A stretch of DNA of 37,817 bases from Oscillospiraceae bacterium (GTDB taxonomy: Bacteria; Bacillota; Clostridia; Oscillospirales; Ruminococcaceae): contig JAEEIA010000082.1 of assembly GCA_016281125.1 (NCBI GenBank), forward strand, positions 1 to 37,817. Direction: 5' to 3'. Shown here piece by piece: positions 1 through 23,518 of the stretch (positions are counted from its first letter, which is position 1; every line of letters begins with the position of its first letter). The position numbers were made by a program, and so were the translations under genes. The notes beneath the pieces were generated by a model. The model searched no databases and was not told where the DNA came from. It saw nothing but the letters and a program-made list of their open reading frames with translations.

Positions 1-340
1 GCTCAGTTGTTGCACCAGGCTCGGTTGTTGCACCAGGCTCAGTGGTTGCACCAGGCTCGGTTGTTGCACCAGGCTCGGTTGTTGCACCAGGCTCAGTGGT
101 TGCACCAGGCTCAGTGGTTGCACCAGGCTCGGTCGTTGCGATAGGCTCAGTGGTAGCACCAGGCTCAGTGGTTGCACCAGGTTCAGTGGTAGCACCAGGT
201 TCAGTGGTAGCACCAGGTTCAGTGGTAGCACCAGGCTCAGTGGTAGCACCAGGCTCAGTAGTAGCACCAGGCTCAGTGGTAGCACCAGGCTCAGTGGTAG
301 CACCAGGCTCAGTGGTAGCACCAGGAGCAGTGGTTTCATC
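1..340 (-). repeat. 18-bp tandem repeat coding an EPGATT linker in scaB
   Basis: About 18 tandem copies of an 18-bp unit (plus-strand form GTTGCACCAGGCTCAGTG with small variations) encode the hexapeptide EPGATT on the minus strand. One unit near 139-156 reads EPIATT instead. The array reaches the left edge, so the true copy number is unknown. It would form a long flexible, possibly O-glycosylated, linker between cohesin 8 and whatever follows. Confidence 0.95.
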
Positions 341-3300
341 CGGGATATCCTTCACGATGACTGCGCCGTTGAACTTCACGAAATCAAGCGGATTCTGATC
401 AGTATCAACAACTTCCAGATCGGTAAAGGTGACCGGATATGTGCCCTCTTCGTTCGGTGCGATGAACACGAGGTTCAGAACAACGGAATCATCCGGAGCA
501 GCGATGTTAGAGCCCTGCTCTGCTGCCCAGACTGCCAGCATCTCGTCCTTATTGAGCTCAGGCTCACCTGTATAGGTGTTGCCCCACTCAAAGCCGACGA
601 ACTGGAGCTTCGGATCGTAACCGAAGGATGCAACGAAGCCAGCCGTACCGGTGTCGCCCTTCACGGTGACCGGAACCTTCACGGTTGCGCCCTTAGCTGC
701 TTCCTTGGTGCCGATGTACCAGCCGGTCTTGCCCTGCGGCAGCGTCGTGCTGGTGGTGGTGGTCGGCTCAACAGTGGTCGTGACTGCTGCGGTGGTCATC
801 ACCGGGTTCACGATGACTGCGCCGTCCTTCTTGGTGACAGTCAGCTGCTGCTGATCGGTGTTGGTCACATCCATGAGAGAGAACTCGACCGGATATGTGC
901 CTTGCTCAGCAGGTGCGGTGAAGTTCAGGTAAAGAACCACGCCGTCAGCCTTCTGGTCTGCGCCCTTATCGTCTGCCCACACAACTGCGAGCTGATCGTT
1001 GTTGAGCTCTGCTTCGCCGGTGTAGCCGTTGGCCCACTCGAAGCCGTTGAACTGGAGCTTGCTGTCATGCTTGAACATCACGACGAAGCCCGCGGTGCCC
1101 TCGTCACCGGTGACAGTGACCGGAACCTTCACCTGTGCGCTCGGAGCGACAGTTTCGGTACCGATGGTCCAGTTGGACTTGCCCGCCGGAACGATGTTCT
1201 TGTCAACGATGACTGCACCATTGGTCTTGGTTGCGGTCAGCTCTGCGCCCTCGGTGTTGGTAACCTCGAGGCTTGCAAAGTTGACAGGGAATGTGCCTTC
1301 TTCATCCGGTGCTGTGAAGTTCAGATACATCACAACATCGTTTGCGTTCTGGTTGCTGCCCTTGGTGCTTGCCCAGACTGCAACAGCCTTTTCGTTATTG
1401 AGCGTGACATCGCCTTCATAGCCGTTTGCCCACTCAATGCCGTTGAACTTCAGCTTGTCGCTGTAATCGAACTGAACGACGAAGCCTGCGGAGCCGTCAT
1501 CGTCGGTAACGGTAACCGGAACCTTGACCTCTGCGCCCTGCGCAGCCTTCTTGGTGCCGATGGTCCAGTTGGTCTTGCCTGCAACAGGCATATCCTTAAC
1601 AATGACCTTACCGTTCACGGTAGATGCTTCGATCGGCTTGCCTTCGGTATTGGTGACTTCCAGCTTATCGAAGCTGACCGGATACTCACCAAATGCCGTC
1701 GGTGCGATGAAGTTCAGGTACATGACGATACCGTCAGCATTCTGGTTGGAGCCGTTGGCATCCGCCCAGACAACGACCTGCTTGTCGTTGTTGATCGTTG
1801 CTTCGCCCTTATAGCCGTCTGCCCACTCGATACCGACGAAGGTCAGATCCTTATAAGCGAAGTTGACAACGAAGCCGGAGGACCCGTCATCATTGGTAAC
1901 GCGAACCGGAACCTTTGCAGCAGCGCCCGGAGCAACGGTCTTTTCACCGATGATCCACTGGGACTTGCCTGCCGGCTGAACCGGTGCTGTGGTAACGATA
2001 ACCGGAGCCGTGGTAGCCACCTCGGGTGCGATCGTCGTTCCTGCCTGTGTTCCGGCAGCGGTGGTCGCCGGAGCCGTTGTGACAGGCACATCGGAAACGA
2101 TGATATCGAGGTTGATGAAATCGAATGCGTACGGCTTATCCTGATCAACCGGCACGACCTTATTGGCCTGCTGCTTGTCAAGACCGACCGTGTAGGTACC
2201 GTTCGTTTCCGGTACCTTGACATTGAAGGTATAGATAACTGCGTTATCAGCTGCCTTCATCGTAGCAGACTGTGCCCATGTGTAGACAACTTCGCCATTC
2301 TTGAGCTTGCTGCTGGTCTGCGAATCACTGTATGTCGGGGAAACTCTGTAAGCGTTGCCCTTTTCAGAGGAAACGAGCGTGACCTGCTTGAAGTCGAAGT
2401 TCATCTGCATACCGGCAGTACCCAGGTCGTTCTTCACGATCCAGTCGAGCGAAAGCGCTTCGCCGGGGCTGGCAACGACAACATTCTTGTCGCCGCTGGT
2501 GGTGTACTCCTTGCCGTTCGGGATGATCTCATAATGGATCTTGTCACCGGACGGTGCTGCTGTGGTCACATCCGCCGGCGGATTACCGACAACGATATCC
2601 AGACCGAAGAATGCGAACTTGTGCGGGCTGTTCTCGTCAACCGGGACAACCTTGTTGACGTCGCTGGAGCTCAGGCCGATGGAGTAGGTGCCGTCAGCGG
2701 ACGGGACCTTGACCTTGAAGGAGTAGATGACTGCGTCATTCGCTGCCTTCAGCGCATTGGACTGTGCCCAGGTGTAAACATACTCGCCTTCCTTGAGGCT
2801 CTTTGCGGTGGTGTGATCGCTGAACGTCGGGGACACTCTGTAAGCGCTGCCCTTTTCGGAATCCGTAACCTTGACCTGCGTGAAGTCAAAGTTCATCTGG
2901 ATACCGGCAGTACCCTGGTCGTTCTTGATCGTCCAGTCAACCGTCAGCTCTTCGCCTGCGGTTGCGTTGTAAACGTTGTTCTTCAGACCGTTCTCCTGTG
3001 CAGACTTGTAAGTCTTGCCGCTCGGGATCAGGTTGTAGATAATCGTTTCCGCATCGAGTGCAACCGTGGTGGTCGGAGCAGGTGTGGTGGTCGGGGTCGG
3101 ACCCGGGTTGCCAACAACAACATCCAGACCGTAGAACACGAACTTGTGCGGCTTGTTCTCGTCAACCGGGACAACCTTGTTGACGTCGCTGGAGCTCAGG
3201 CCGATGGAGTAGGTGCCGTCAGCGGACGGAACCTTGATCTTGAAGGAGTAGATGACTGCGTCATTCGCTGCCTTCAGCGCATTGGACTGTGCCCAGGTGT

Positions 3301-4219
3301 AAACATACTCGCCTTCCTTCAGGCTCTTTGCGGTGGTGTGGTCGCTGAATGTCGGGGACACTCTGTACGCGCTGCCCTTTTCGGAATCCGTGACCTTGAC
3401 CTGCGTGAAGTCAAAGTTCATCTGGATGCCTGCGGTGCCCTGGTCATTCTTGATGGTCCAGTCAACCGTCAGTTCTTCACCGGCAGTAGCAGTGTATACA
3501 TTGTTCTTCAGACCGTTTTCCTGTGCAGACTTGTAGGTCTTGCCGCTCGGAATCAGGTTATAAATAATCGTATCCTCGCTGACCTGTGCCGGGGTACCCG
3601 GAGCAGGCGTCGTGGACGGCGCCGGGGTAGTGGTCGGGTTGCCGACGGTGATTGCCAGACCGTAGAAATCGAAATCGTACGGCTTGGTTTCATCAACCGG
3701 AACAACCTTGTTGGTATCCTTGCCGTTCTTGCTCAGACCGACAGTGTAAACACCGTCTGCTGAGGGAACCTTAATGTTGAAAGAGTAAATGACGCTGCCG
3801 TCACTTGCTTTCAGCGCACTCGACTGTGCCCAGGTATAGACACACTCGCCTTCTTTCAGGTCCTTCGCAGTTTTATAATCACTGAACGTCGGACTGACTC
3901 TGTAAGCATTGCCCTTTTCAGAGTCAACGAGTGTAACCTGTGTGAAATCGAAGTTCATCTGGATACCTGCGGTACCCTGATCTCCGGTCACAATCCAGTC
4001 AACGGTGAGGGATTCACCTGCGGTCGCTGTGTAAGAATTGTTTGCGGTACCGTTGTCCTTTGCAGACTTGTATTCCTTGTCACGCGGGACGAGGTTGTAA
4101 ACAATCTTATCAGCTGCGTTTGCTGTAATTACATTTTCAGCATGCAGCGCAGGGAATGCACCGGACAAAGACGTGACTGCCAGGCACAGGGAGGAAAGAG
4201 CAGAAATGAGTTTCTTCAT
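1..4219 (-). CDS. scaB: ScaB-type multi-cohesin scaffoldin (5' part, runs off left edge)
   Basis: Structural scaffoldin of a ruminococcal cellulosome, secreted. ATG at 4219 follows AAAGGGA. Residues 1 to about 33 are a signal peptide ([10 protein letters not shown] start). Eight cohesins are visible. Cohesins 1-4 (about nt 4110-3655, 3590-3115, 3055-2590, 2550-2100) are of the same type as those in the neighbouring Sca[25 protein letters not shown] and FYGLDVVVG-like motifs, separated by Thr/Pro linkers. Cohesins 5-8 (about nt 1975-1590, 1588-1215, 1212-815, 743-350) are shorter, start with a WxIG motif and contain KVPVTV and GFVV.F.Y. Numbers 5-7 are joined almost without linkers. From about 340 to the edge the protein is EPGATT repeats. 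In R. flavefaciens ScaB the first class binds enzyme-type dockerins and the second binds the ScaA dockerin. The same split here is inference. The C-terminus lies outside the window. Confidence 0.9.
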
Positions 4220-4239
4220 CTTATTCCCTTTCTGGATTT

Positions 4240-4269
4240 ATGTGCGCAGAGGTTAGCCTCCGCGCACAT
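4240..4269 (-). promoter_or_regulatory. Strong intercistronic stem-loop between scaA and scaB
   Basis: ATGTGCGCAGAGG (4240-4252) pairs with CCTCCGCGCACAT (4257-4269): a 13-bp stem with one G-U pair in the minus-strand RNA and a 4-nt loop. It sits between the scaA stop (4318) and the scaB start (4219). No U-run follows it on the minus strand, so it is not a classical terminator. An RNA processing or stabilising element, or a partial barrier setting the scaA:scaB ratio, fits better. The role is inferred. Confidence 0.7.
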
Positions 4270-4317
4270 AATCCGCATCTTTGTGAAGTGTATCAGCCGT
4301 TTGGCTGCATATTCTGA

Positions 4318-6669
4318 TTATGACTTTTTGCCGAGCTCGGAGCGGTCGATCAGCAGAGCCAGGAACTGCTTGATCTTCGTTGCGTCCTTCGTATCGACCT
4401 TGTCATCCTTCTCGCAGTCAGCGTTCTTCAGACCCTGTGCGGTGACTGTTGCGTTCTTTGCGAGATACTTGTTGAGCAGGACAACGTCGTTGATGCGAAC
4501 GTCGCCGTCGCAGTTGACGTCACCGTAGAGAACGGTGTCAGACGGTGCCGGCGTGGTAGCGGTCGGCTCCGGTGTGGTAGCGATCGGCTCCGGCGTGGTG
4601 GTCGGCTCCGGCGTGGTGATCGGCTCAGTGGTAACGGTCGGCTCCGGCGTGGTGGTCGGTTCCGGCGTGGTGGTAGTTTCGGGCGTCTGGCCGACAACGA
4701 TGTCCAGACCGTAGAATGCAAACTTGTGCGGCTTGTTCTCGTCAACCGGAACAACCTTGTTGACGTCGCTGGAGCTCAGGCCGATGGAGTAGGTGCCGTT
4801 TGCTTCCGGAACCTTAATCTTGAAGGAGAAGATGACTGCGTCATTTGCTGCCTTCAGTGCGTTGGACTGTGCCCAGGTGTAGACATACTCGCCTTCCTTC
4901 AGGCTCTTTGCAGTTGTGTAATCGCTGAACGTCGGGGAAACTCTGTAAGCGCTGCCCTTTTCGTAATCAACAACCTTAACCTGCGTGAAGTCGAAGTTCA
5001 TCTGGATACCTGCGGTACCCTGATCGTTCTTGATGGTCCAGTCAACCGTGAGATCCTCGCCTGCGGTTGCATTGTACACGTTGTTCTTCAGACCCTTTTC
5101 CTGTGCGGAGGTGTACTCCTTGCCGCTCGGGACCAGGTTGTAGATGATAGTGTCAGCATCGAGCTGTGCCGGGGTGACGGGTTCCGGAGTGGTGGTCGGA
5201 GCCGGAGTCGTCTGCGGCACATCGCCCGGAACGACGATATCCAGACCGTAGAACTGGAACTTGTGCGGCTTGTTCTCGTCAACCGGAACAACCTTGTTGA
5301 CGTCGCTGGAGCTCAGGCCGATGGAGTAGGTGCCTGCGGTTTCCGGTGCCTTGATCTTGAAGGAGTAGATGACTGCGTCATTTGCTGCCTTCAGCGCATT
5401 GGACTGTGCCCAGGTGTAGACATACTCGCCTTCCTTGAGACTCTTTGCGGTGGTGTGATCACTGAACGTCGGGGAAACTCTGTAAGCGCTGCCCTTCTCG
5501 TTATCGGTGACCTTCACCTGTGTGAAATCGAAGTTCATCTGGATGCCTGCGGTGCCCTGGTCATTCTTGATGGTCCAGTCAACCGTCAGCTCCTCGCCGG
5601 CCTTCTCAGCGGTATAAACGTTGTTCTTGAGGCCGTTCTCCTGTGCGGACTTGTAAGTCTTGCCGCTCGGGACGAGGTTGTAGATGATGGTATCCTCACT
5701 CAGCTGTGCCGGAGTACCCTGTTCCGGTGTCGTGGTCGGAGCCGGAGTCGTGGTCGGAGCCGGAGTGGTGGAAGGCGGAGTTGTGCCGGTGCCGTCATCG
5801 ACTTTGATGACCAGCTTCTCGACGCTGAACGGCTGCTTGCCGTTCGGGCTGTTGAAGTTGGAAGTGACCTTGCCCTTCTTCTCATCCGGGAACTCGACGT
5901 TGTCATCGCTGAACAGCGAGGTCGGATGCGTGTTGACATATTCCTTCGTGTAAACGGAGAAATCGTAAGTGCCGTTTGCCAGATTGGACGGGAGCTCAAG
6001 GTCAAATCTCAGGAACTCATACTTATATGCCCAGGTTTCATCCTTTGACCAGGTGGTAACCGGGGTGTAGGTAGAATAATCGAACTTCTTCTCCGGAACG
6101 CCGCCTGCTGCTTCCCATGCTGCGAAGGAATCGACCAGCTGACCGGCCTTGATTTCCTTATCAGCCTGATACAGAACACTCCAGGACTCCGGGTTCACCA
6201 TCGAAATTGCGGTGTAAACAACGTCGCCGGCGTACATGGAGTCGCCCTTGCCGTTGCCTTCCAGACGGCCGCTCTCGAGGCAGTTCGGATACACGAAATC
6301 GCTCGGTGTGCCGCCGATTTCGTCGCCCTTCGGCACCATCTTGATGCCGTAGTTGCCGAACGAATCCTTGTGGTTTTCGATCTTGGTGCCCTTACGGTCA
6401 ATGACATAGCCCTGACCGATGGTCTCATCGAAATTGCCGTCCTTGCCGATCGCGAACTTCAGCTGGAGAGAATAGAAACCGCTGGACTGCGGAATATAAA
6501 CGGAAACAGGGACCTTATCGCCAGGCTTCGCAGATATTTCATGCACGCCATTGGAGCGAATAGAAACGATGGTCTCGCTGACAGCAGCATCAGTGCTGAG
6601 CGTCATGGTGCCGCCCATTGCCGTTGCTGCGATCACAAACGACGAAAGAGCAGAGATGAATTTCTTCAT
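4318..6669 (-). CDS. scaA: ScaA-type scaffoldin: N-terminal domain, two cohesins, C-terminal dockerin
   Basis: Secreted primary scaffoldin, 783 aa. ATG at 6669 is preceded by AGAAAGGA. Signal peptide about 1-28. Residues about 30-292 form an N-terminal domain beginning with a cohesin-like strand pattern (KPGDKVPVSVYIPQ). Cohesin 1 spans about 324-482 and cohesin 2 about 502-660. Both end in FYGLDIVV and are nearly identical to ScaB cohesins 1-4. A linker of TTPEPT-type repeats leads to a dockerin at about 711-783, with two calcium loops (DVNCDGDVRIND and DCEKDDKVDTKD). In R. flavefaciens, ScaA binds enzymes through its cohesins and docks on ScaB through its dockerin. The domain layout and the position just upstream of scaB make that role likely here. 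scaB follows after a 98-nt gap. Confidence 0.93.
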   Translation of the reverse strand: MKKFISALSSFVIAATAMGGTMTLSTDAAVSETIVSIRSNGVHEISAKPGDKVPVSVYIPQSSGFYSLQLKFAIGKDGNFDETIGQGYVIDRKGTKIENHKDSFGNYGIKMVPKGDEIGGTPSDFVYPNCLESGRLEGNGKGDSMYAGDVVYTAISMVNPESWSVLYQADKEIKAGQLVDSFAAWEAAGGVPEKKFDYSTYTPVTTWSKDETWAYKYEFLRFDLELPSNLANGTYDFSVYTKEYVNTHPTSLFSDDNVEFPDEKKGKVTSNFNSPNGKQPFSVEKLVIKVDDGTGTTPPSTTPAPTTTPAPTTTPEQGTPAQLSEDTIIYNLVPSGKTYKSAQENGLKNNVYTAEKAGEELTVDWTIKNDQGTAGIQMNFDFTQVKVTDNEKGSAYRVSPTFSDHTTAKSLKEGEYVYTWAQSNALKAANDAVIYSFKIKAPETAGTYSIGLSSSDVNKVVPVDENKPHKFQFYGLDIVVPGDVPQTTPAPTTTPEPVTPAQLDADTIIYNLVPSGKEYTSAQEKGLKNNVYNATAGEDLTVDWTIKNDQGTAGIQMNFDFTQVKVVDYEKGSAYRVSPTFSDYTTAKSLKEGEYVYTWAQSNALKAANDAVIFSFKIKVPEANGTYSIGLSSSDVNKVVPVDENKPHKFAFYGLDIVVGQTPETTTTPEPTTTPEPTVTTEPITTPEPTTTPEPIATTPEPTATTPAPSDTVLYGDVNCDGDVRINDVVLLNKYLAKNATVTAQGLKNADCEKDDKVDTKDATKIKQFLALLIDRSELGKKS

Positions 6670-6875
6670 GACAACTTATTCCTTTCTGGTTTTCTTCCCG
6701 GGGTGCCGCATTGCCCGGTTCAAACACATTGTATTTGGTTTTCTCAGGTTTTTGCTCCGGCATTCTGTCTGCGGCTTTTTGCCGGTACGTTGAAATGTTG
6801 CAGCTGATACGCGCCTCCCGGCAGCATATCACGGATCGCGGAACAGCAGCTTACCCGTGGTCTGCGTTCCCCGTG

Positions 6876-7697
6876 TCATGAGCCTTTCCTTGCACCGAGC
6901 GCAACTGCATCCGGCCCCTTCAGCAGGGATTCCAGCAGCAGTCTTACATCAGCGAGCGTCAGTACACCGTCAAACTCACAATCTGCATTAGCGTATCCTG
7001 CGGCGCTCAGAGCAAGCTCTTCCGCAAGCACGCGATGCATCAGCACTGCGTCCGACACCGACCGCTTTCCGTCCAGATCGAGATCCCCGTACATGGTTGC
7101 ACCGGTTTCGTCGATCGGCTTCCAGACGGCTCCGTGTGTCACAGAGGTTTTACAGTAATGCGCGTTCCCGTCTGCATCCACATAGCCAGCAGCTATTTCC
7201 GCTTTCGCGGTTTCCCCCGCCGCAGGAACGATCCGAAGCTCCGTCCGCGTACCCGCCGGCATATTTTCCGACAAGGTTCCGCTGATCCGGAAAAAGGGAC
7301 GCTCCTCTTTGAGCCAGTAGTCTGCATTCATCAATCCGGTTCCCCAGCGAATCCAGAGTCTGTCGCCCTTGTCTTCATACGAAAACACGGGAGGCTCCAG
7401 CTTCGCAAAGTCCTCTGCATTCTGTGCACCTGTGTCATACAGCAGCTCCACACCGGTCATGCTCAGAGCAGCAGCGTCATATGCAACTGCGAATTCTGCC
7501 GCACACAATCCTGTTTCCGGCAGCTGACTCAGACTGACCGTCGCGGTGAACGCACCGTTCCCGTCTGCGACTGCTGTTTCCGCAGTAATCGCAGTCAGTG
7601 CCTCCTCCGTATCATCAGCCCGGGTAATCAATCCTGCCGCAGGACTGAACGCTGAACAGAATGCAAGCATAGCGGCTGCCGCCTTCTGCGCCTTCAT
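6876..7697 (-). CDS. scaC: ScaC-type adaptor scaffoldin: one cohesin-like domain plus dockerin
   Basis: 273 aa, starting at ATG 7697 because AAGGAGG lies 6 nt upstream. The frame stays open further upstream but has no comparable site. A signal peptide covers about 1-28. A divergent cohesin-like domain at about 38-195 has the usual pattern of beta-strand segments (GLCAAEFAVAYD). A dockerin at about 198-265 has calcium loops DLDLDGKRSVSD and DCEFDGVLTLAD. In R. flavefaciens, ScaC is an adaptor: its dockerin docks into ScaA and its own cohesin recruits a different enzyme set. Position (first of scaC-scaA-scaB) and architecture support the same name. scaA starts 206 nt downstream, and I see no strong promoter in that gap, so co-transcription is plausible. 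Confidence 0.85.
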   Translation of the reverse strand: MKAQKAAAAMLAFCSAFSPAAGLITRADDTEEALTAITAETAVADGNGAFTATVSLSQLPETGLCAAEFAVAYDAAALSMTGVELLYDTGAQNAEDFAKLEPPVFSYEDKGDRLWIRWGTGLMNADYWLKEERPFFRISGTLSENMPAGTRTELRIVPAAGETAKAEIAAGYVDADGNAHYCKTSVTHGAVWKPIDETGATMYGDLDLDGKRSVSDAVLMHRVLAEELALSAAGYANADCEFDGVLTLADVRLLLESLLKGPDAVALGARKGS

Positions 7698-7923
7698 TCC
7701 TTTCCTCCTTCTTTCAAGTAGAGTTATTTCATCAGGAAATGCGCTGATACATTTCTCCGATGCCCGCGCCCGCATCCGTCCCTGTACAGATTTAGGGCAT
7801 ACAGCGGCCGATCCGGCGAGGAAACCCCGACGCACGGGAACAGCCCTTTCTGCTTTCAGAGCATCTGTACGATGCCCGTTCCGGCAAAAGGGTATACGTA
7901 CCCGCACAGTACGGCTTATTATC

Positions 7924-7952
7924 ATTATAAAGGACACATGGCACAAAGTCAA
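7924..7952 (-). promoter_or_regulatory. Promoter of the scaC-scaA-scaB cluster
   Basis: Minus-strand TTGACT (7947-7952), 17-bp spacer, TATAAT (7924-7929). The start of transcription would be near 7917. That leaves a leader of about 220 nt before the scaC start codon. Confidence 0.85.
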
Positions 7953-18421: not shown

Positions 18422-20035
18422 TCAGAACCGGTAGATGGGCAAATCGTCTGAAATGCGCATGGGTTTGGTGTTGTCCACGATTTTAATCCCGCCAAACACA
18501 GTTGCACAGCGCTCCGTAATATCGACGCCGTTCTCGTCGCTGATATCAAGGGGATAAAAACCGAAAACCAGCTGCTGTCCGGGCTTCACGCGATCCGAAA
18601 TATCGAAATACAGCGTGAATGCCAGGCCAACCTGCGTCGTGTCCAATCCGTCTTCTGTGCCGAAGACGAGTCTTGTTTCCATCTCATCTTCATTATAACT
18701 TGCCTGAACAGCACCGAACAGATCGCCGTCATCCAGCTTTACCCTTTCACATCCCGCATATCCCGTTACGGTGGCCTCTATGGACGGTGTCACTCCCGCT
18801 GCATCATAGATCGTGAGTATCGCACCTGCAAAGCCTGTATTCTCCTCAAGATAGAACCGTACAGGAACATTTTTGGCTCCGGGCTGTGCTTCCACCGTTT
18901 CGTATCTGAATTGGATATCACCGAAATGATACTTCGTCCGTTCGGGATCTGTCAGATTCTCCGGCGGCGCTGTCCGCTCCGTCTGATCCGTAAACGGTTC
19001 AGCAGCAGCAGGAAGTGTGCCGTCCGCACCGACTATGATGTCAAGCCCATAGAACACATAGCCGGCCGGAGAACCCCAGTCGGGATCCAGATACATACCG
19101 TTGGAATAGCTCGGATCCGGTTTGATCGTATATCTTCCGGGCGTTTCCGGAGCAGTGACCGTGATAATTGCAACAGATGCGATTGCCTTGGCCTCCTGCT
19201 TTTCCGGATTGGTATTGACATAATACAGGCTGGTACCCAGATGCTGGAGCTTTCCGTATTCCGAGTATTCTAATGACGTCCACAGGTCGGTCAATCCAAG
19301 TTCCGGTGATACCGTCAGGCGAAGATCCATATTGGTGATGCCCGGGTCATTCCTGACACCCAATTCCATCATAAATGATTCACCCGGCTCCGCATAATAT
19401 ACATTGTTTGCGAGTCCGAGCTCCTCAGCCTTCCGGTAATCCCTGCTGAGCGGATGCAGATCGAATACGGCCCGCTGCGCCGTCCCGGCTTCGGGCGCTG
19501 CGGCCTCCGCATTCGTTTTTTTCGGTACTGTTGTGGTCTGTGCCTCGGTCACCGCGGCCGTGGTCAATGTTGTCCGCGGGGTTGTTTCCGTTGCACTTGC
19601 AGCTGTCGTTTCCGGCCTTGCTGTCGTTGCTGCGGGGACTGTTGTGCCTGTCTGTACTGTCTGATTGCCTGTTGTCACAGTGTTTGTCTGTCTGTCCGTC
19701 ACGGTTTTCGTCACAGCCGAGTGATCGGTCACGGCTTTTGTGACAACCGCTGTTACGTCTGTACCGGGCGCGGTGGTGGCAGTCACGACGGCGGTCACCA
19801 GCTCCTCTGATGCTTCGCTTGTTACAGTGCCGGACTCCTCAGCAGACCGGTGCAGCATATAGCCGCCGCCGATGTTCAGTGCAAGCAGAACAGCCGCAAC
19901 CGCGGTTCCCGTAATCATTCCGCGTCTGGATACTGAGATTTTCTTACGGCTTGCCCGCGCCAGCACTTCCTGTTTGCATGAAGGATCCTGCTTCAGCCTG
20001 TCCACTACACTGCAATATTGCTGTATGCCTTTCAT
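18422..20035 (-). CDS. Membrane anti-sigma-like protein with two extracellular cohesin-like domains
   Basis: 537 aa, ATG at 20035 overlapping the sigma-factor stop in ATGA. Order of parts: a cytoplasmic N-terminus of about 39 residues (1-39), one membrane helix (about 40-62), a Thr/Ser/Ala-rich linker (64-185), cohesin-like domain A (about 190-337) and cohesin-like domain B (about 368-521). Domain A tracks the ScaA/ScaB cohesins: LGLANNVYYAEPGESF aligns with [26 protein letters not shown] with [10 protein letters not shown], and YVFYGLDIIVG with KFAFYGLDIVVG. Domain B has AQPGAKNVPVRFYL and GFAGAILTIYD, also cohesin-like. The short N-terminus fused to a membrane helix and coupled to an ECF sigma gene fits an anti-sigma factor, although no ZAS motif is present. 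Sensing of dockerins or assembly state is inference. Confidence 0.85.
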   Translation of the reverse strand: MKGIQQYCSVVDRLKQDPSCKQEVLARASRKKISVSRRGMITGTAVAAVLLALNIGGGYMLHRSAEESGTVTSEASEELVTAVVTATTAPGTDVTAVVTKAVTDHSAVTKTVTDRQTNTVTTGNQTVQTGTTVPAATTARPETTAASATETTPRTTLTTAAVTEAQTTTVPKKTNAEAAAPEAGTAQRAVFDLHPLSRDYRKAEELGLANNVYYAEPGESFMMELGVRNDPGITNMDLRLTVSPELGLTDLWTSLEYSEYGKLQHLGTSLYYVNTNPEKQEAKAIASVAIITVTAPETPGRYTIKPDPSYSNGMYLDPDWGSPAGYVFYGLDIIVGADGTLPAAAEPFTDQTERTAPPENLTDPERTKYHFGDIQFRYETVEAQPGAKNVPVRFYLEENTGFAGAILTIYDAAGVTPSIEATVTGYAGCERVKLDDGDLFGAVQASYNEDEMETRLVFGTEDGLDTTQVGLAFTLYFDISDRVKPGQQLVFGFYPLDISDENGVDITERCATVFGGIKIVDNTKPMRISDDLPIYRF

Positions 20036-20505
20036 ATCTCAAACTCCTCTCCAAGCGCTTCCTTCAGCAGCCCTCTTGCACGGTAAAGCTGCGTCCGTAC
20101 AGCAGTTTCCGACCGTCCTGTAATCGACGCGATTTCCGCAGTCGAATAGCCCTCATAATAGAACAGATGGATGACCGAACGGTATTTTGCAGGGAGTTCC
20201 ATCACTGCATGATAAACGTCATGCTCCTCCGGCGTTTCACAGCAAAGTGCTGCCTCCTCCAGCGGCACAGTGAATCTGTACCGGAACGAACGAAGCAGGT
20301 CCTTTGCCTGATTGATCGTAACCCGCATGATCCAGCCGGTTTCATGACGCTCATTTTCAAACACCTTCCGGCACGCGAAGCGCTTGAGAAAAACCTCTGA
20401 GGTGATGTCCTCCGCATCCGCACGGTTTTTGCAGTATGTAAATGCCAGTCTGTATACCGAATCATGGTATTTATCATAGATCCGCTCCATTTCCAGTGTA
20501 TCCAC
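20032..20505 (-). CDS. ECF-type RNA polymerase sigma factor
   Basis: About 157 aa from GTG 20505. The frame is open to a GTG at 20613, but that has no ribosome-binding site, whereas GAGGTGAGG lies 6 nt before GTG 20505 and the protein then has the normal ECF length. Region 2 is visible at the start (YDKYHDSVYRLAFTYC, ADAEDITSEVFLKRF) and region 4 at the end (LPAKYRSVIHLFYYEGYSTAEI, then TAVRTQLYRARGLLKE). It directs RNA polymerase to a regulon and is presumably held by the downstream membrane protein, with which it is translationally coupled. The upstream promoter is a SigA type, so at least basal expression is housekeeping. Targets are not known. The divergent GH9 gene and the sca cluster are candidates. 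Confidence 0.92.
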   Translation of the reverse strand: MDTLEMERIYDKYHDSVYRLAFTYCKNRADAEDITSEVFLKRFACRKVFENERHETGWIMRVTINQAKDLLRSFRYRFTVPLEEAALCCETPEEHDVYHAVMELPAKYRSVIHLFYYEGYSTAEIASITGRSETAVRTQLYRARGLLKEALGEEFEI

Positions 20506-20642
20506 GAAGTCCCTCACCTCTTTGCCAAGTATTGCGCGCAGTTTCATCAGCTGATACAGAAATGCTCTGACCATTTCATTTTGTATACGAACGAAGCCGT
20601 CAAAATGTTGCACGCCGGAAAAAATTTTTTCGCACAGCCTCC

Positions 20643-20671
20643 ATTATACCTGTTCCGAACCGTTTTGTCAA
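20643..20671 (-). promoter_or_regulatory. Promoter of the ECF sigma/anti-sigma operon
   Basis: Minus-strand TTGACA (20666-20671), 17-bp spacer, TATAAT (20643-20648): consensus boxes at consensus spacing. Transcription would start near 20636, leaving a leader of about 130 nt to GTG 20505. Confidence 0.9.
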
Positions 20672-20767: not shown

Positions 20768-20830
20768 ATAAACGGTAGATTCTGCGTAGAGGGCGCAAAA
20801 TTACCGCAATTTTTGAGAGGGGGAATTCCC

Positions 20831-23518
20831 ATGAAATCCAAAAAGCTTGCTGCGCTGATGTCAGCAGCTGTGCTGACCGCAACGGCGATGCCGTTCGGCA
20901 ATGTCGGCACAGTCACCGCTGCGGGCAAGTATAATTATGCCGAAGCGCTGCAAAAATCCATGTTCTTCTACGAGGTGCAGCAGTCCGGTGTCCTGCCGGA
21001 ATGGAACACCGTCCAGTGGAGAGCCGATTCCATGGTCGATGAGAGCGGCAAGGAAACCGACGTCGTTCCCGGCGGCTGGTTCGACGCGGGCGACCACTTC
21101 AAATTCACGCTGACGAATGCGTATTCCGCATCCATCATGGCGTGGGGCTACCTGGAGTACAAGGACGCAATCAAGAAGGCAGGCCTGGAAGAGCTCTACC
21201 GCCAGAACATCATCTGGGGCATGGACTATGTCCTCGGCTGTGACAAGGGCGGCGGCTCCATGATCGGCACGATCGGCGACTTCACCGGCGGTTCGACTGA
21301 CCACAACATCTGGTGCAGTCCGGAGGTCTATCTGCGCAAGCATCACCTGAACAACGGTGACTGGAAGCGCCCGAGCGATACGATCAAGAATGCTTCCGTT
21401 GCGGCGCTCTCCGCTGCGGCGCTCGCAGAGGGCTACCTCATGCTGAAGGATACCGAGCCGGACAAGGCGGCAAATTATCTGAAACACGCAAAGGATCTCT
21501 TTGAAGGTGCGGACAAGATCCGCGACACCAAGCAGGTCGGCGGCATGGGCAACATGTATCCGACTTCTTCGTGGATCGATGACTGCATGTATGCAGCACT
21601 CTGGCTCTATAAGGCGACCGGCGATGCGTCCTATCTGAGCAAGGTCGAGAAGGACTACATCCCGCAGTTCCCGACGGAGAGCCAGTCCACCGACTGGAAG
21701 TATACCTGGGGTCTCTGCTGGGACGATACCACGCAGGCCGCGGCACTGCTCTACGCACAGCTGACCGAAAAGGAGGAGTGGGTCAACCACATCGACAAGC
21801 ACATCCGTTACTGGATGGGCGGTTCCTCCGATCTAAAAAAGTTTGAGGGAAACATTACCGCTGACGGCCTTTCCCATCTGACCGGCTGGGGCTGCCTGCG
21901 CCATGCAACCAATACCGCATGGATTACCAAGCTCGCATGTGATACGATCCTGAAAGACAGCGCAAATGCGTCCAAGTACAACGATTGGGCAGATTCGCAG
22001 GTTGACTACTGCTTCGGCGCCAATAAGCTGAACCTTTGCTACGTGCTCGGCATGGGCGAAAAGAATCCGAAAGCAATCCATCACAGAGCTGCTTCCGGTA
22101 TCCACGATGACCACTGGAACGAACTCGGCAAGTCCTCCGGTGGCGCAGAAGGCTGGCAGACTGAATATGCACATACGCTGTACGGTGCACTGATCGGCGG
22201 CCCTAAGAGTGACGGCTCCTATGATATGACGCAGATCGGTGTTTCAAATTACGAGCAGTCCGAGGTCGCAATCGACTACAACGCAGGCTACACGGCAGTG
22301 CTGTGCGCGATGATCGACGAGAACGGCGGCACGCCGCTTGCAGACTTCCCGGAGCGTGAGACCCCGAAGTGGGCGGAATGGGAGGTTGCAGCCACCCTGA
22401 ACGGCTCCGGCGACAGCTACACCGAGATCAAGATGTGGGCGATGAACCACACCGCATGGCCGGCAAGAGTCGCAAAGGACATCGAGGTGCGCTACTACTT
22501 CGACATCTCCGAGGCACTCGAAAAGAATCTGTCTGTCGATGATGTCAAGGTCGAAGGCAGAGCGCAGCAGTACAGTGCCGGAGAGCAGGGCTACGCCACC
22601 GTGACCGGCCCGATCCAGTACAAGGATAATATCTACTACGCAAGCATCAAGTTTGAGGACGGCAGAGCAATCCAGCCGACCGGCCAGTCCGAGCACCGCG
22701 ATGAGGTGCAGTTCCGCGTTGCCATTCCGGATGCCATCGACGGACAGTCCACCAAGGGTGCGTGGGATCCCTCCAATGACTGGTCCTACAAGGGCGTCGG
22801 CAAGACGGATCTGAAGTCTGACGATTCCCTCAACGAGCATTTCACGATGTACGTCAACGGCAAGCTGGTCTGGGGCGAGGAGCCGGACGGCACCAAGGCT
22901 GTTCCGGGTGCAGACCTCGACGATCCGACACCGGTCGCACCGACCACGACACCGGCACCCAGCACCACGCCTGCGCCGGAAACAACCACGGAACCGCTGT
23001 ATTATACGCTGGAGCTCCGTTCCAAGCCGACGAAAACGACATACGCCATCGGCGAAGCGCTGGATCTCACCGGCGGTACCGCAGAAGGCTGGGTCGGAAA
23101 CGGAACGCTCCACGGCGATACGTTCGAGCAGCCGCTCACATACAGCGGATTCACCATTGACGATTCGGAATTTGACAACACGAAGCCCGGCACGTATACG
23201 ATTTACGTCAAGTACGGCACGGCGACCGCTTCGTTCAAGGTCACCGTCAGCAACAATCCGGCTCCGGCCACAACGACGCTCCCCGGCACCGAGCAGTTTC
23301 GCTACGGTGACGCGAACCTCGATACTTATGTGGATGTTTCCGATGCTGTTCTTGTTGCTAAGTTTATCAATTCGGATGTATCGGGTCAGATCACGGACCA
23401 GGGACTGAAAAACGCTGACTGCGACGGCATTGCCGGTGTGGACGGCGGCGACGTTTCCCGCATCCTGCTGTATATTGCAAAGATCGTCACAAACGAGCAG
23501 ATGGGCAAGGCGCTCTGA
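20831..23518 (+). CDS. GH9 endoglucanase with CBM3, Ig-like domain and dockerin
   Basis: 895 aa from ATG 20831, with AGAGGGGG 7 nt upstream. Signal peptide about 1-32. GH9 catalytic domain about 34-510: GGWFDAGDHFKF carries the catalytic base Asp pair (D85, D88), and SEVAIDYNAGY near residue 480 carries the proton-donor Glu. A CBM3c-like module spans about 516-683 (WEVAATLN start, DPSNDWSYKG near its end). A Thr/Pro linker leads to an Ig-like domain (about 723-810) and then a dockerin (about 825-890). The GH9-CBM3c pairing is typical of processive endoglucanases. The dockerin's first calcium loop (DANLDTYVDVSD) is normal, but the second (DCDGIAGVDGGD) has Ile at position 5. The dockerin would attach it to a cohesin of the scaffoldins. 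Confidence 0.93.
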   Translation: MKSKKLAALMSAAVLTATAMPFGNVGTVTAAGKYNYAEALQKSMFFYEVQQSGVLPEWNTVQWRADSMVDESGKETDVVPGGWFDAGDHFKFTLTNAYSASIMAWGYLEYKDAIKKAGLEELYRQNIIWGMDYVLGCDKGGGSMIGTIGDFTGGSTDHNIWCSPEVYLRKHHLNNGDWKRPSDTIKNASVAALSAAALAEGYLMLKDTEPDKAANYLKHAKDLFEGADKIRDTKQVGGMGNMYPTSSWIDDCMYAALWLYKATGDASYLSKVEKDYIPQFPTESQSTDWKYTWGLCWDDTTQAAALLYAQLTEKEEWVNHIDKHIRYWMGGSSDLKKFEGNITADGLSHLTGWGCLRHATNTAWITKLACDTILKDSANASKYNDWADSQVDYCFGANKLNLCYVLGMGEKNPKAIHHRAASGIHDDHWNELGKSSGGAEGWQTEYAHTLYGALIGGPKSDGSYDMTQIGVSNYEQSEVAIDYNAGYTAVLCAMIDENGGTPLADFPERETPKWAEWEVAATLNGSGDSYTEIKMWAMNHTAWPARVAKDIEVRYYFDISEALEKNLSVDDVKVEGRAQQYSAGEQGYATVTGPIQYKDNIYYASIKFEDGRAIQPTGQSEHRDEVQFRVAIPDAIDGQSTKGAWDPSNDWSYKGVGKTDLKSDDSLNEHFTMYVNGKLVWGEEPDGTKAVPGADLDDPTPVAPTTTPAPSTTPAPETTTEPLYYTLELRSKPTKTTYAIGEALDLTGGTAEGWVGNGTLHGDTFEQPLTYSGFTIDDSEFDNTKPGTYTIYVKYGTATASFKVTVSNNPAPATTTLPGTEQFRYGDANLDTYVDVSDAVLVAKFINSDVSGQITDQGLKNADCDGIAGVDGGDVSRILLYIAKIVTNEQMGKAL

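Follow-up and report, generated by a model that had tools for sequence, protein, structure and literature searches.

The stretch analysed here, referred to as the window, is the 37,817-nucleotide contig JAEEIA010000082.1 of an Oscillospiraceae bacterium from the family Ruminococcaceae (assembly GCA_016281125.1). On its minus strand lies a pair of genes, one for an extracytoplasmic function (ECF) sigma factor and one for a membrane protein of 537 amino acids (aa) whose outer part carries two cohesin-like domains, D1 and D2. By its layout, with a co-encoded sigma factor, a single transmembrane segment and a basic N-terminus (the latter two judged from hydropathy and charge alone), the 537-aa protein is probably an anti-sigma factor. 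The parts of the locus are as follows.

20032..20505, minus strand: ECF sigma factor gene, probably 157 aa (Pfam, orthologue-based start, 4-base overlap with the anti-sigma gene)
18422..20035, minus strand: gene for the membrane anti-sigma-like protein, 537 aa
19919..20035, minus strand: aa 1-39 of that protein, a basic tail (10 K/R, 3 D/E), predicted to be cytoplasmic
19853..19918, minus strand: aa 40-61, the sole transmembrane segment (hydropathy)
19481..19852, minus strand: aa 62-185, a linker rich in Thr, Ala and Val (38 T, 22 A and 15 V in 124 aa)
19001..19480, minus strand: D1, cohesin-like domain, aa 186-345 (BLASTP, hhalign, PDB profile match, Foldseek)
18473..18946, minus strand: D2, cohesin-like domain, aa 364-521 (PDB profile matches, hhalign)

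The two open reading frames (ORFs) and their ATGA overlap (positions 20032-20035, minus strand) are present as described in an earlier interpretation of this DNA, the sequence-only reading. The sigma/anti-sigma organisation proposed there is upheld by the two sigma regions, the 4-base overlap and the single transmembrane segment. The sigma protein matches Pfam Sigma70_r2 (1.9e-12) and Sigma70_r4_2 (7.6e-16), so that regions 2 and 4 are both present. Its longest ORF opens at 20613 and would encode 193 aa. Because orthologues begin at the position equivalent to GTG 20505, upstream of which lies AGAGGTGAGG, the protein is probably 157 aa long. The hydropathy maximum of the 537-aa protein begins at aa 40 (mean 1.65 across 19 residues). 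Residues 1-39 resemble the N-termini of orthologues whose ectodomains differ widely, and the gene organisation together with this conservation suggests that they would be the part that binds the sigma factor.

The relationship of D1 to cohesins can be seen within the contig, which also encodes two scaffoldins.

4318..6669, minus strand: ScaA-like scaffoldin with two A-type cohesins and a dockerin, the comparison source for D1
2..4219, minus strand: ScaB-like scaffoldin with four A-type and four B-type cohesins, continuing past the contig end

The sequence-only reading had pointed to motifs shared by the ectodomain and the cohesins of these proteins. The motifs are there, and D1 (taken as aa 186-336) aligns with the ScaA-like scaffoldin at 30% identity (BLASTP E 2e-13) and with the ScaB-like one at E 4e-13, both being single-pair E-values. 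A cohesin profile search of both domains, proposed at the time, gave 46.0 bits (1e-12) for D1 with a profile of 11 A-type scaffoldin cohesins from its own genome, and 32.1 bits for D2 with a D2 family profile built without that domain. As a chance control for both, the best score among 4000 shuffles (2000 per domain) was 9.2 bits. Profile comparison with hhalign placed D1 with the A-type scaffoldin cohesins at 99.7% probability. When the PDB was searched at E<=10 with a profile of nine D1 domains, the single match was the Ruminococcus flavefaciens cohesin ScaB5 (5n5p, 5.8e-5).

For D2 the kinship emerges through its own family. The D2 family profile was built from ten rows: nine are D2 domains, and the tenth is the only such domain in a 254-aa protein. 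At E<=10 all 15 of its PDB matches are named as cohesin or scaffoldin chains. The autonomous cohesins 4wkz (4.1e-7) and 4n2o (4.7e-7) head this set. In hhalign comparisons D2 reaches 92.2% with five B-type cohesins and 3.7% with A-type cohesins; scaffoldin-only profiles do not match it. By these comparisons D2 is a cohesin relative farther removed than D1. The ectodomain as a whole can thus be regarded as related to cohesins, strongly for D1 and by way of the family profile for D2.

Other cohesin-like sequences occur in the same genome. The 254-aa protein (L019 8856-9620) has a start resembling a signal peptide with lipobox and carries a single cohesin-like domain, which also appears in short ORFs of many of 30 genomes of the genus. 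In the window, the frame 6876-7952 (358 aa) gives cohesin (0.0016) and dockerin (0.0007) matches, both under the cut-off, and resembles a small adaptor scaffoldin. Contigs C82 and C86 (L021, L022) hold more ScaA/ScaB-like scaffoldin genes, as if in a second cluster.

The gene pair is conserved in related ruminococci, a point that the sequence-only reading had proposed to check. A search for the sigma factor in the 30 same-genus genomes gave 34 matches in 21 of them. Altogether 36 loci were examined, 31 from these matches and five reached via the anti-sigma protein. In every one of the 36, the ORF that follows has a hydrophobic stretch close to its N-terminus; in 26 it overlaps the sigma gene by 4 bases. 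D1 and D2 occur together at ten loci, and at none does one domain occur alone; the other 26 match neither domain profile at 1e-3 (one of them ends at a contig edge). The ten cohesin-bearing anti-sigma-like proteins come from at least 6 of the 30 genomes: three from the window's own genome (G000), two each from G001 and G008, and one each from G002, G010 and G015. The two further pairs in the window's genome, on contigs C1 and C76, are built alike. Because the D1 and D2 profiles were made from nine of the ten proteins, the independent evidence is the protein G010_C13 and a scaffoldin-only profile, which matches nine of the ten. Identical proteins tie G002 to Ruminococcus sp. Phil11, G015 to a metagenome-assembled genome (MAG) from sheep omasum and G001 to Firm_04.

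Outside the genus, no cohesin-bearing anti-sigma factor was detected among 247 family and 391 class genomes with a full-protein profile at E<=1e-25. The three family genomes that matched all belong to the genus, and the anti-sigma factors among these matches are in G000 and G010 only. Three matches in G022 lie in frames of 881 and 1070 aa, cover positions 125-376 of the profile, and are read as scaffoldin cohesins. The class genomes gave no match beyond the window's own genome, and plasmids gave no match. Some related loci depart from the common pattern. Loci L062-L067 have orthologous sigma/anti-sigma pairs with large ectodomains of unassigned type and no cohesin match. A paralogue of the pair on contig C89 (L020 1801-3165) includes a membrane protein with a weak DUF4179 match (0.012). 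At L056 (G008:C14) the sigma frame that precedes the cohesin-bearing anti-sigma gene looks irregular, with an end that differs from the other loci.

The ectodomain appears to have been exchanged as a unit, or cassette, among related bacteria, with the inner switch left unchanged. The clearest case is found in the DNA of G002 and G015 along L068. Counted per 100 bases, identity between the two is 84-100% from 3501 to 6400, in most steps 93-100%; it drops to 49-71% from 6401 to 7600, and from 7601 on it is 92-100% of aligned bases. On this locus D1 starts at 6499 and the last anti-sigma codon ends at 7620. The encoded proteins are 93.5% identical across N-terminus and transmembrane segment, 74.0% in the linker and 42.0% in the ectodomain. 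For a non-cohesin paralogue from the same two genomes the values are 98.4% (N-terminus and transmembrane segment) and 91.3% (ectodomain). Among the 18 compared pairs, which were picked by hand, six other non-cohesin pairs gave 80.7-100% and 65.3-98.0%, and three more distant ones 57.4-87.3% and 28.5-50.1%. Since distant non-cohesin pairs fall as low, fast ectodomain divergence is not special to the cohesin forms. The mark of the G002/G015 pair is a sharp local break flanked by near-identical DNA.

Phylogenetic trees of the inner and outer parts conflict. In the tree of sigma factor plus N-terminus, five C8-locus proteins group together (100/100). In the ectodomain tree the ten proteins fall into two different groups (100/100) that cross loci. 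Approximately unbiased (AU) tests reject the ectodomain group as a constraint on the tree of sigma factor plus N-terminus, and likewise the locus groups as constraints on the ectodomain tree (p-AU 2.9e-41, 6.6e-76 and 1.3e-82); these values are stronger than warranted, because the ectodomain groups were named after the identities had been seen. Long branches were flagged for G000_C76 and G000_C8. The G008_C14 ectodomain is closest to that of G008_C11, another locus in the same genome (45.7%), and the G001_C45 ectodomain is closest to those of C1-type loci (56.2% and 53.6%). No near-identical donor ectodomain was found among the ten proteins.

Upstream of the gene pair are a promoter and a divergent neighbour.

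20643..20671, minus strand: sigma-A-like promoter, TTGACA-N17-TATAAT, preceding the sigma/anti-sigma operon, a layout repeated at three orthologous cohesin-bearing loci
20813..23518, plus strand: GH9-CBM3-Big_3 cellulase (Pfam), the divergent neighbour; its dockerin match is weak (0.0061) and under the cut-off

At the four cohesin-bearing C8-type loci examined, TTGACA-N17 is followed by TATAAT or TAAAAT. Other loci have a different kind of promoter. CGTC at -10 is frequent in ECF promoters, and all four C1-type loci carry [TG]ATATT-N14-CGTC upstream of the sigma gene, in the manner of an autoregulated promoter. Such an ECF-type motif occurs at 9 of 14 sigma loci scanned, including six non-cohesin C8-type orthologues; it was found neither at the four cohesin-bearing C8-type loci scanned (G008_C14 left out) nor at C76. 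An inverted repeat, GAAATG...CATTTC, lies at 20559-20577 of the window, 54-72 bases upstream of the sigma start. By eye it is also seen upstream of sigma in L057, L058 and L059, making four C8-type cohesin loci in total, with a loop that differs in one of them, and might be an RNA hairpin or an operator.

At three orthologous loci the neighbouring gene shares N-terminal sequence with the GH9 cellulase. The neighbour of the C1 pair has a dockerin above the cut-off, and that of the C76 pair is a GH43/GH32 protein without a dockerin at E<=0.01. The scan covered the neighbours of the three own-genome pairs, and an adjoining dockerin gene was not used as a pointer to the signal.

Among known systems, the RsgI proteins come closest in their logic. 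RsgI anti-sigma factors of cellulosome producers have varied outer modules (CBM3, CBM42, PA14 and others) and several paralogues per genome (PMC3413522). The SigI/RsgI pairs of Acetivibrio (Clostridium) thermocellum and relatives have these traits in common with the present system: an anti-sigma factor in the membrane whose outer modules vary, a cellulosome-producing host and multiple paralogues. Sigma type, N-terminal domain and sensor differ. SigI is described as being without the usual region 4 (PMC6056542), a region that the window's sigma factor has, and the outer modules here are cohesin-like. The RsgI_N domain gave two matches in the genome at E<=1, none above the cut-off and neither at this locus. 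With no RsgI_N above the cut-off and region 4 present in the sigma factor, membership of the RsgI/SigI family was rejected.

Two other systems share single traits with the pair. A Pseudobacteroides cellulosolvens SigI/RsgI biosensor (Dong 2024) is, by its title, a sensor other than a carbohydrate-binding module (CBM) that regulates scaffoldins, which is the common trait; again by title it is Fn3-like and SigI-type, unlike a cohesin on an ECF anti-sigma factor. In Bacillus subtilis the anti-sigma factor RsiV senses lysozyme directly (PMC4183432). SigV/RsiV resembles the present pair in having an ECF sigma factor, and RsiV is itself a protein-ligand receptor, a precedent for the role proposed here for D1-D2. 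It differs in that its ligand is lysozyme, and the part of that paper available describes no cohesin.

Cohesins of R. flavefaciens, namely ScaB5 (5n5p), ScaB3/ScaA (5m2s, 5m2o) and autonomous ones (4wkz, 4n2o), resemble D1 and D2 in sequence family and, by low-confidence models, in predicted fold. They sit in scaffoldins or stand alone, and their key face residues differ from those of D1. In the main text of a study of R. flavefaciens FD-1 cohesin-dockerin interactions (PMC5301203), the words 'sigma', 'membrane' and 'sensor' are absent. No cohesin-bearing anti-sigma factor is described among the matches listed in searches of open-access literature, in agreement with the earlier remark that no described system of this kind was known. 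The pair appears to belong to a small family in which ECF anti-sigma factors carry cohesin-like sensors in tandem, apparently exchanged as a unit.

In the interpretation favoured here, with a probability of roughly 0.5, the 537-aa protein is an anti-sigma receptor for a protein ligand, with exchangeable cohesin-like sensors. The two proteins would form one switch, made up of an ECF sigma factor and the anti-sigma factor that sits in the membrane. The anti-sigma factor would cross the membrane, extend through the long Thr-rich linker and display the D1-D2 tandem, most likely a receptor for a protein. The likeliest ligand would be a dockerin-bearing protein outside the group that docks on ScaA and ScaB. 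With the tandem occupied, the anti-sigma factor might be cleaved differently or change its conformation, which would release the sigma factor. Because the ectodomain appears to be exchanged while sigma factor, N-terminus and flanking genes persist, a lineage could alter the signal that is sensed and not the target that is switched. What the sequences themselves show is the gene pair, its topology, the kinship with cohesins, the conservation, the cassette-like break in a single genome pair and the conflict between trees; the autoregulated-type promoter of the C1-type loci also counts in favour. Sigma binding by aa 1-39, the nature of the ligand, release by proteolysis and the target genes are inferred.

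A number of results weigh against this interpretation. At E<=1 no Pfam family matches any part of the 537-aa protein, whether PF00963 in the ectodomain or any family in aa 1-39. A PDB search with the protein alone gave no cohesin, its two matches (E>=1) both being P2X receptors. PF00963 also misses the ScaA-like scaffoldin of the same contig, and a PDB search with one scaffoldin A-type cohesin alone gave a single match (0.12), a non-cohesin. With the A-type profile, 5n5p (9.6e-5) and 5m2o (0.034) were found, plus that same non-cohesin at 1.0. On the C1 paralogue PF00963 is weak (14.5 bits, under the cut-off). An NCBIfam GltJ match on the 537-aa protein (1.6e-5) covers aa 16-184, chiefly the low-complexity linker, and was discarded. 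Because Pfam and single-sequence PDB searches give no cohesin, the claim of cohesin kinship rests on pairwise, profile and fold comparisons.

Both predicted structures are of low confidence. The first model, from four sequences, has a mean predicted local distance difference test (pLDDT) score of 50.2, and in Foldseek its rank 1 is an arrestin-type chain, with many antibody chains (TM-score about 0.2-0.3) among cohesins of TMt 0.5-0.7. The second model, from ten alignment rows that took in scaffoldin cohesins, has a mean pLDDT of 57.7. By ten-residue blocks, its D1 outside an insertion is mostly at 64-89 and its D2 mostly below 60. In favour of the interpretation, Foldseek ranks 1-10 for this low-confidence model are cohesin or cohesin-dockerin entries by title, led by the cohesin dyad 3l8q and with 5n5p_C at TMt 0.72 (root-mean-square deviation 3.2); non-cohesins begin at rank 11. 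For the nine-stranded jelly roll typical of cohesins, the best TMt is this 0.72, reached with a single domain, and model confidence is low above all in D2.

The binding face of D1 counts on the same side. Contacts of ScaB5 with the ScaA dockerin are published (PMC5934362), and were mapped onto D1 through an alignment that is uncertain in this region. The positions equivalent to Tyr810, Ala811, Phe812 and Glu814 are Y-T-W-Q in all 11 scaffoldin cohesins. The set occurs in none of nine D1 domains, with Y in one (the window's own), T in one, and W and Q in none. The D1 domains retain 11-26 of 51 scaffoldin-invariant columns. In favour of the interpretation, the position equivalent to Ala777, in the same uncertain alignment, is hydrophobic or aromatic in 9/9 D1s; in RfCohScaB3 binding is dominated by two hydrophobic face residues (PMC5429695). 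Since Y-T-W-Q is lost as a set, ScaA/ScaB-type dockerins are not expected to bind D1 and are unlikely as its ligands; dockerin sensing by D1-D2 is nevertheless a plausible hypothesis. In this respect the sequence-only reading fared unevenly. Its cohesin ectodomain, gene organisation and conservation stand, and its signal of free dockerin enzymes, where ordinary ScaA/ScaB dockerins are meant, becomes the less likely form, a judgement that depends on the alignment.

The evidence for exchange and for a regulon is also qualified by adverse results. The sharp break is confined to the G002/G015 pair; between the window and G002, and between C1 and G010_C13, identity does not recover on the far side. 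Some non-cohesin pairs diverge equally, with 85.7-87.3% in N-terminus and transmembrane segment and 48.3-50.1% in the ectodomain. The window's operon has its sigma-A-like promoter and no ECF-type motif. A genome scan with KATATT-N14-CGTYA found 17 sites where the control had 8, and yielded no credible regulon; 13 of the 17 fall within an open frame of more than 200 codons on either strand, and one is the C1 pair's own sigma promoter.

That D1 has lost the conserved face residues would also fit a cohesin fold that no longer binds dockerins and now serves as a generic beta-sandwich sensor of polysaccharide, cell-wall strain or another envelope signal, comparable to the CBMs on RsgI. So would the fast divergence of the ectodomain, and the 26 of 36 loci (one at a contig end) where the ectodomain on an orthologous or related anti-sigma factor matches no cohesin. 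This alternative is a serious one, though short of an even chance. Against it, D1 and D2 are either both present or both missing across the 36 loci, exchange runs between cohesin forms, and dockerin ligands are plentiful, every one of the 30 genus genomes having at least 66 dockerin matches. The same abundance leaves no contrast by which dockerin presence could account for the species that carry the cohesin form.

Two further explanations are much less probable. Cohesins anchored at the cell surface exist, and the protein might be a scaffoldin fixed in the membrane to hold enzymes on the cell, its position beside a sigma gene being incidental. ScaE entries among the PDB matches of the D2 profile and the 254-aa protein of the same genome, with its signal-peptide-like start and single cohesin-like domain, lend this some colour; it is made improbable by the 4-base overlap with the sigma gene at 26 of 36 loci, by the similar N-terminus in orthologues without a cohesin match and by the presence of three such pairs in one genome. 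The cassette-like divergence could in turn be an artefact of metagenome assembly, given that the two records compared are both MAGs and that the sharp break comes from that one pair. Such an artefact is very improbable: both ectodomains are complete and in frame, the divergence stops approximately at the stop codon, the divergent stretch lies inside contigs of 57 and 79 kb with both flanks highly identical, and the tree conflict extends to other genomes.

An anti-sigma receptor for a protein ligand would have consequences for cellulosome regulation in ruminococci. A 2024 genome survey finds RsgI suites in Acetivibrio-type cellulosome bacteria only (PMC11557425). If the interpretation is true, cohesin-bearing anti-sigma factors would be candidate cellulosome regulators in these bacteria. 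A bolder and rather doubtful extension is that Ruminococcus cellulosome genes are under ECF sigma factors whose cohesin-bearing anti-sigma factors read dockerin-bearing proteins, with the receptor half recombined between strains and paralogous loci and so re-targeted to different dockerin groups. The apparent cassette exchange would offer a natural experiment, in which one sigma factor is joined to different sensors, and the role of cohesins would extend from structural parts to receptors.

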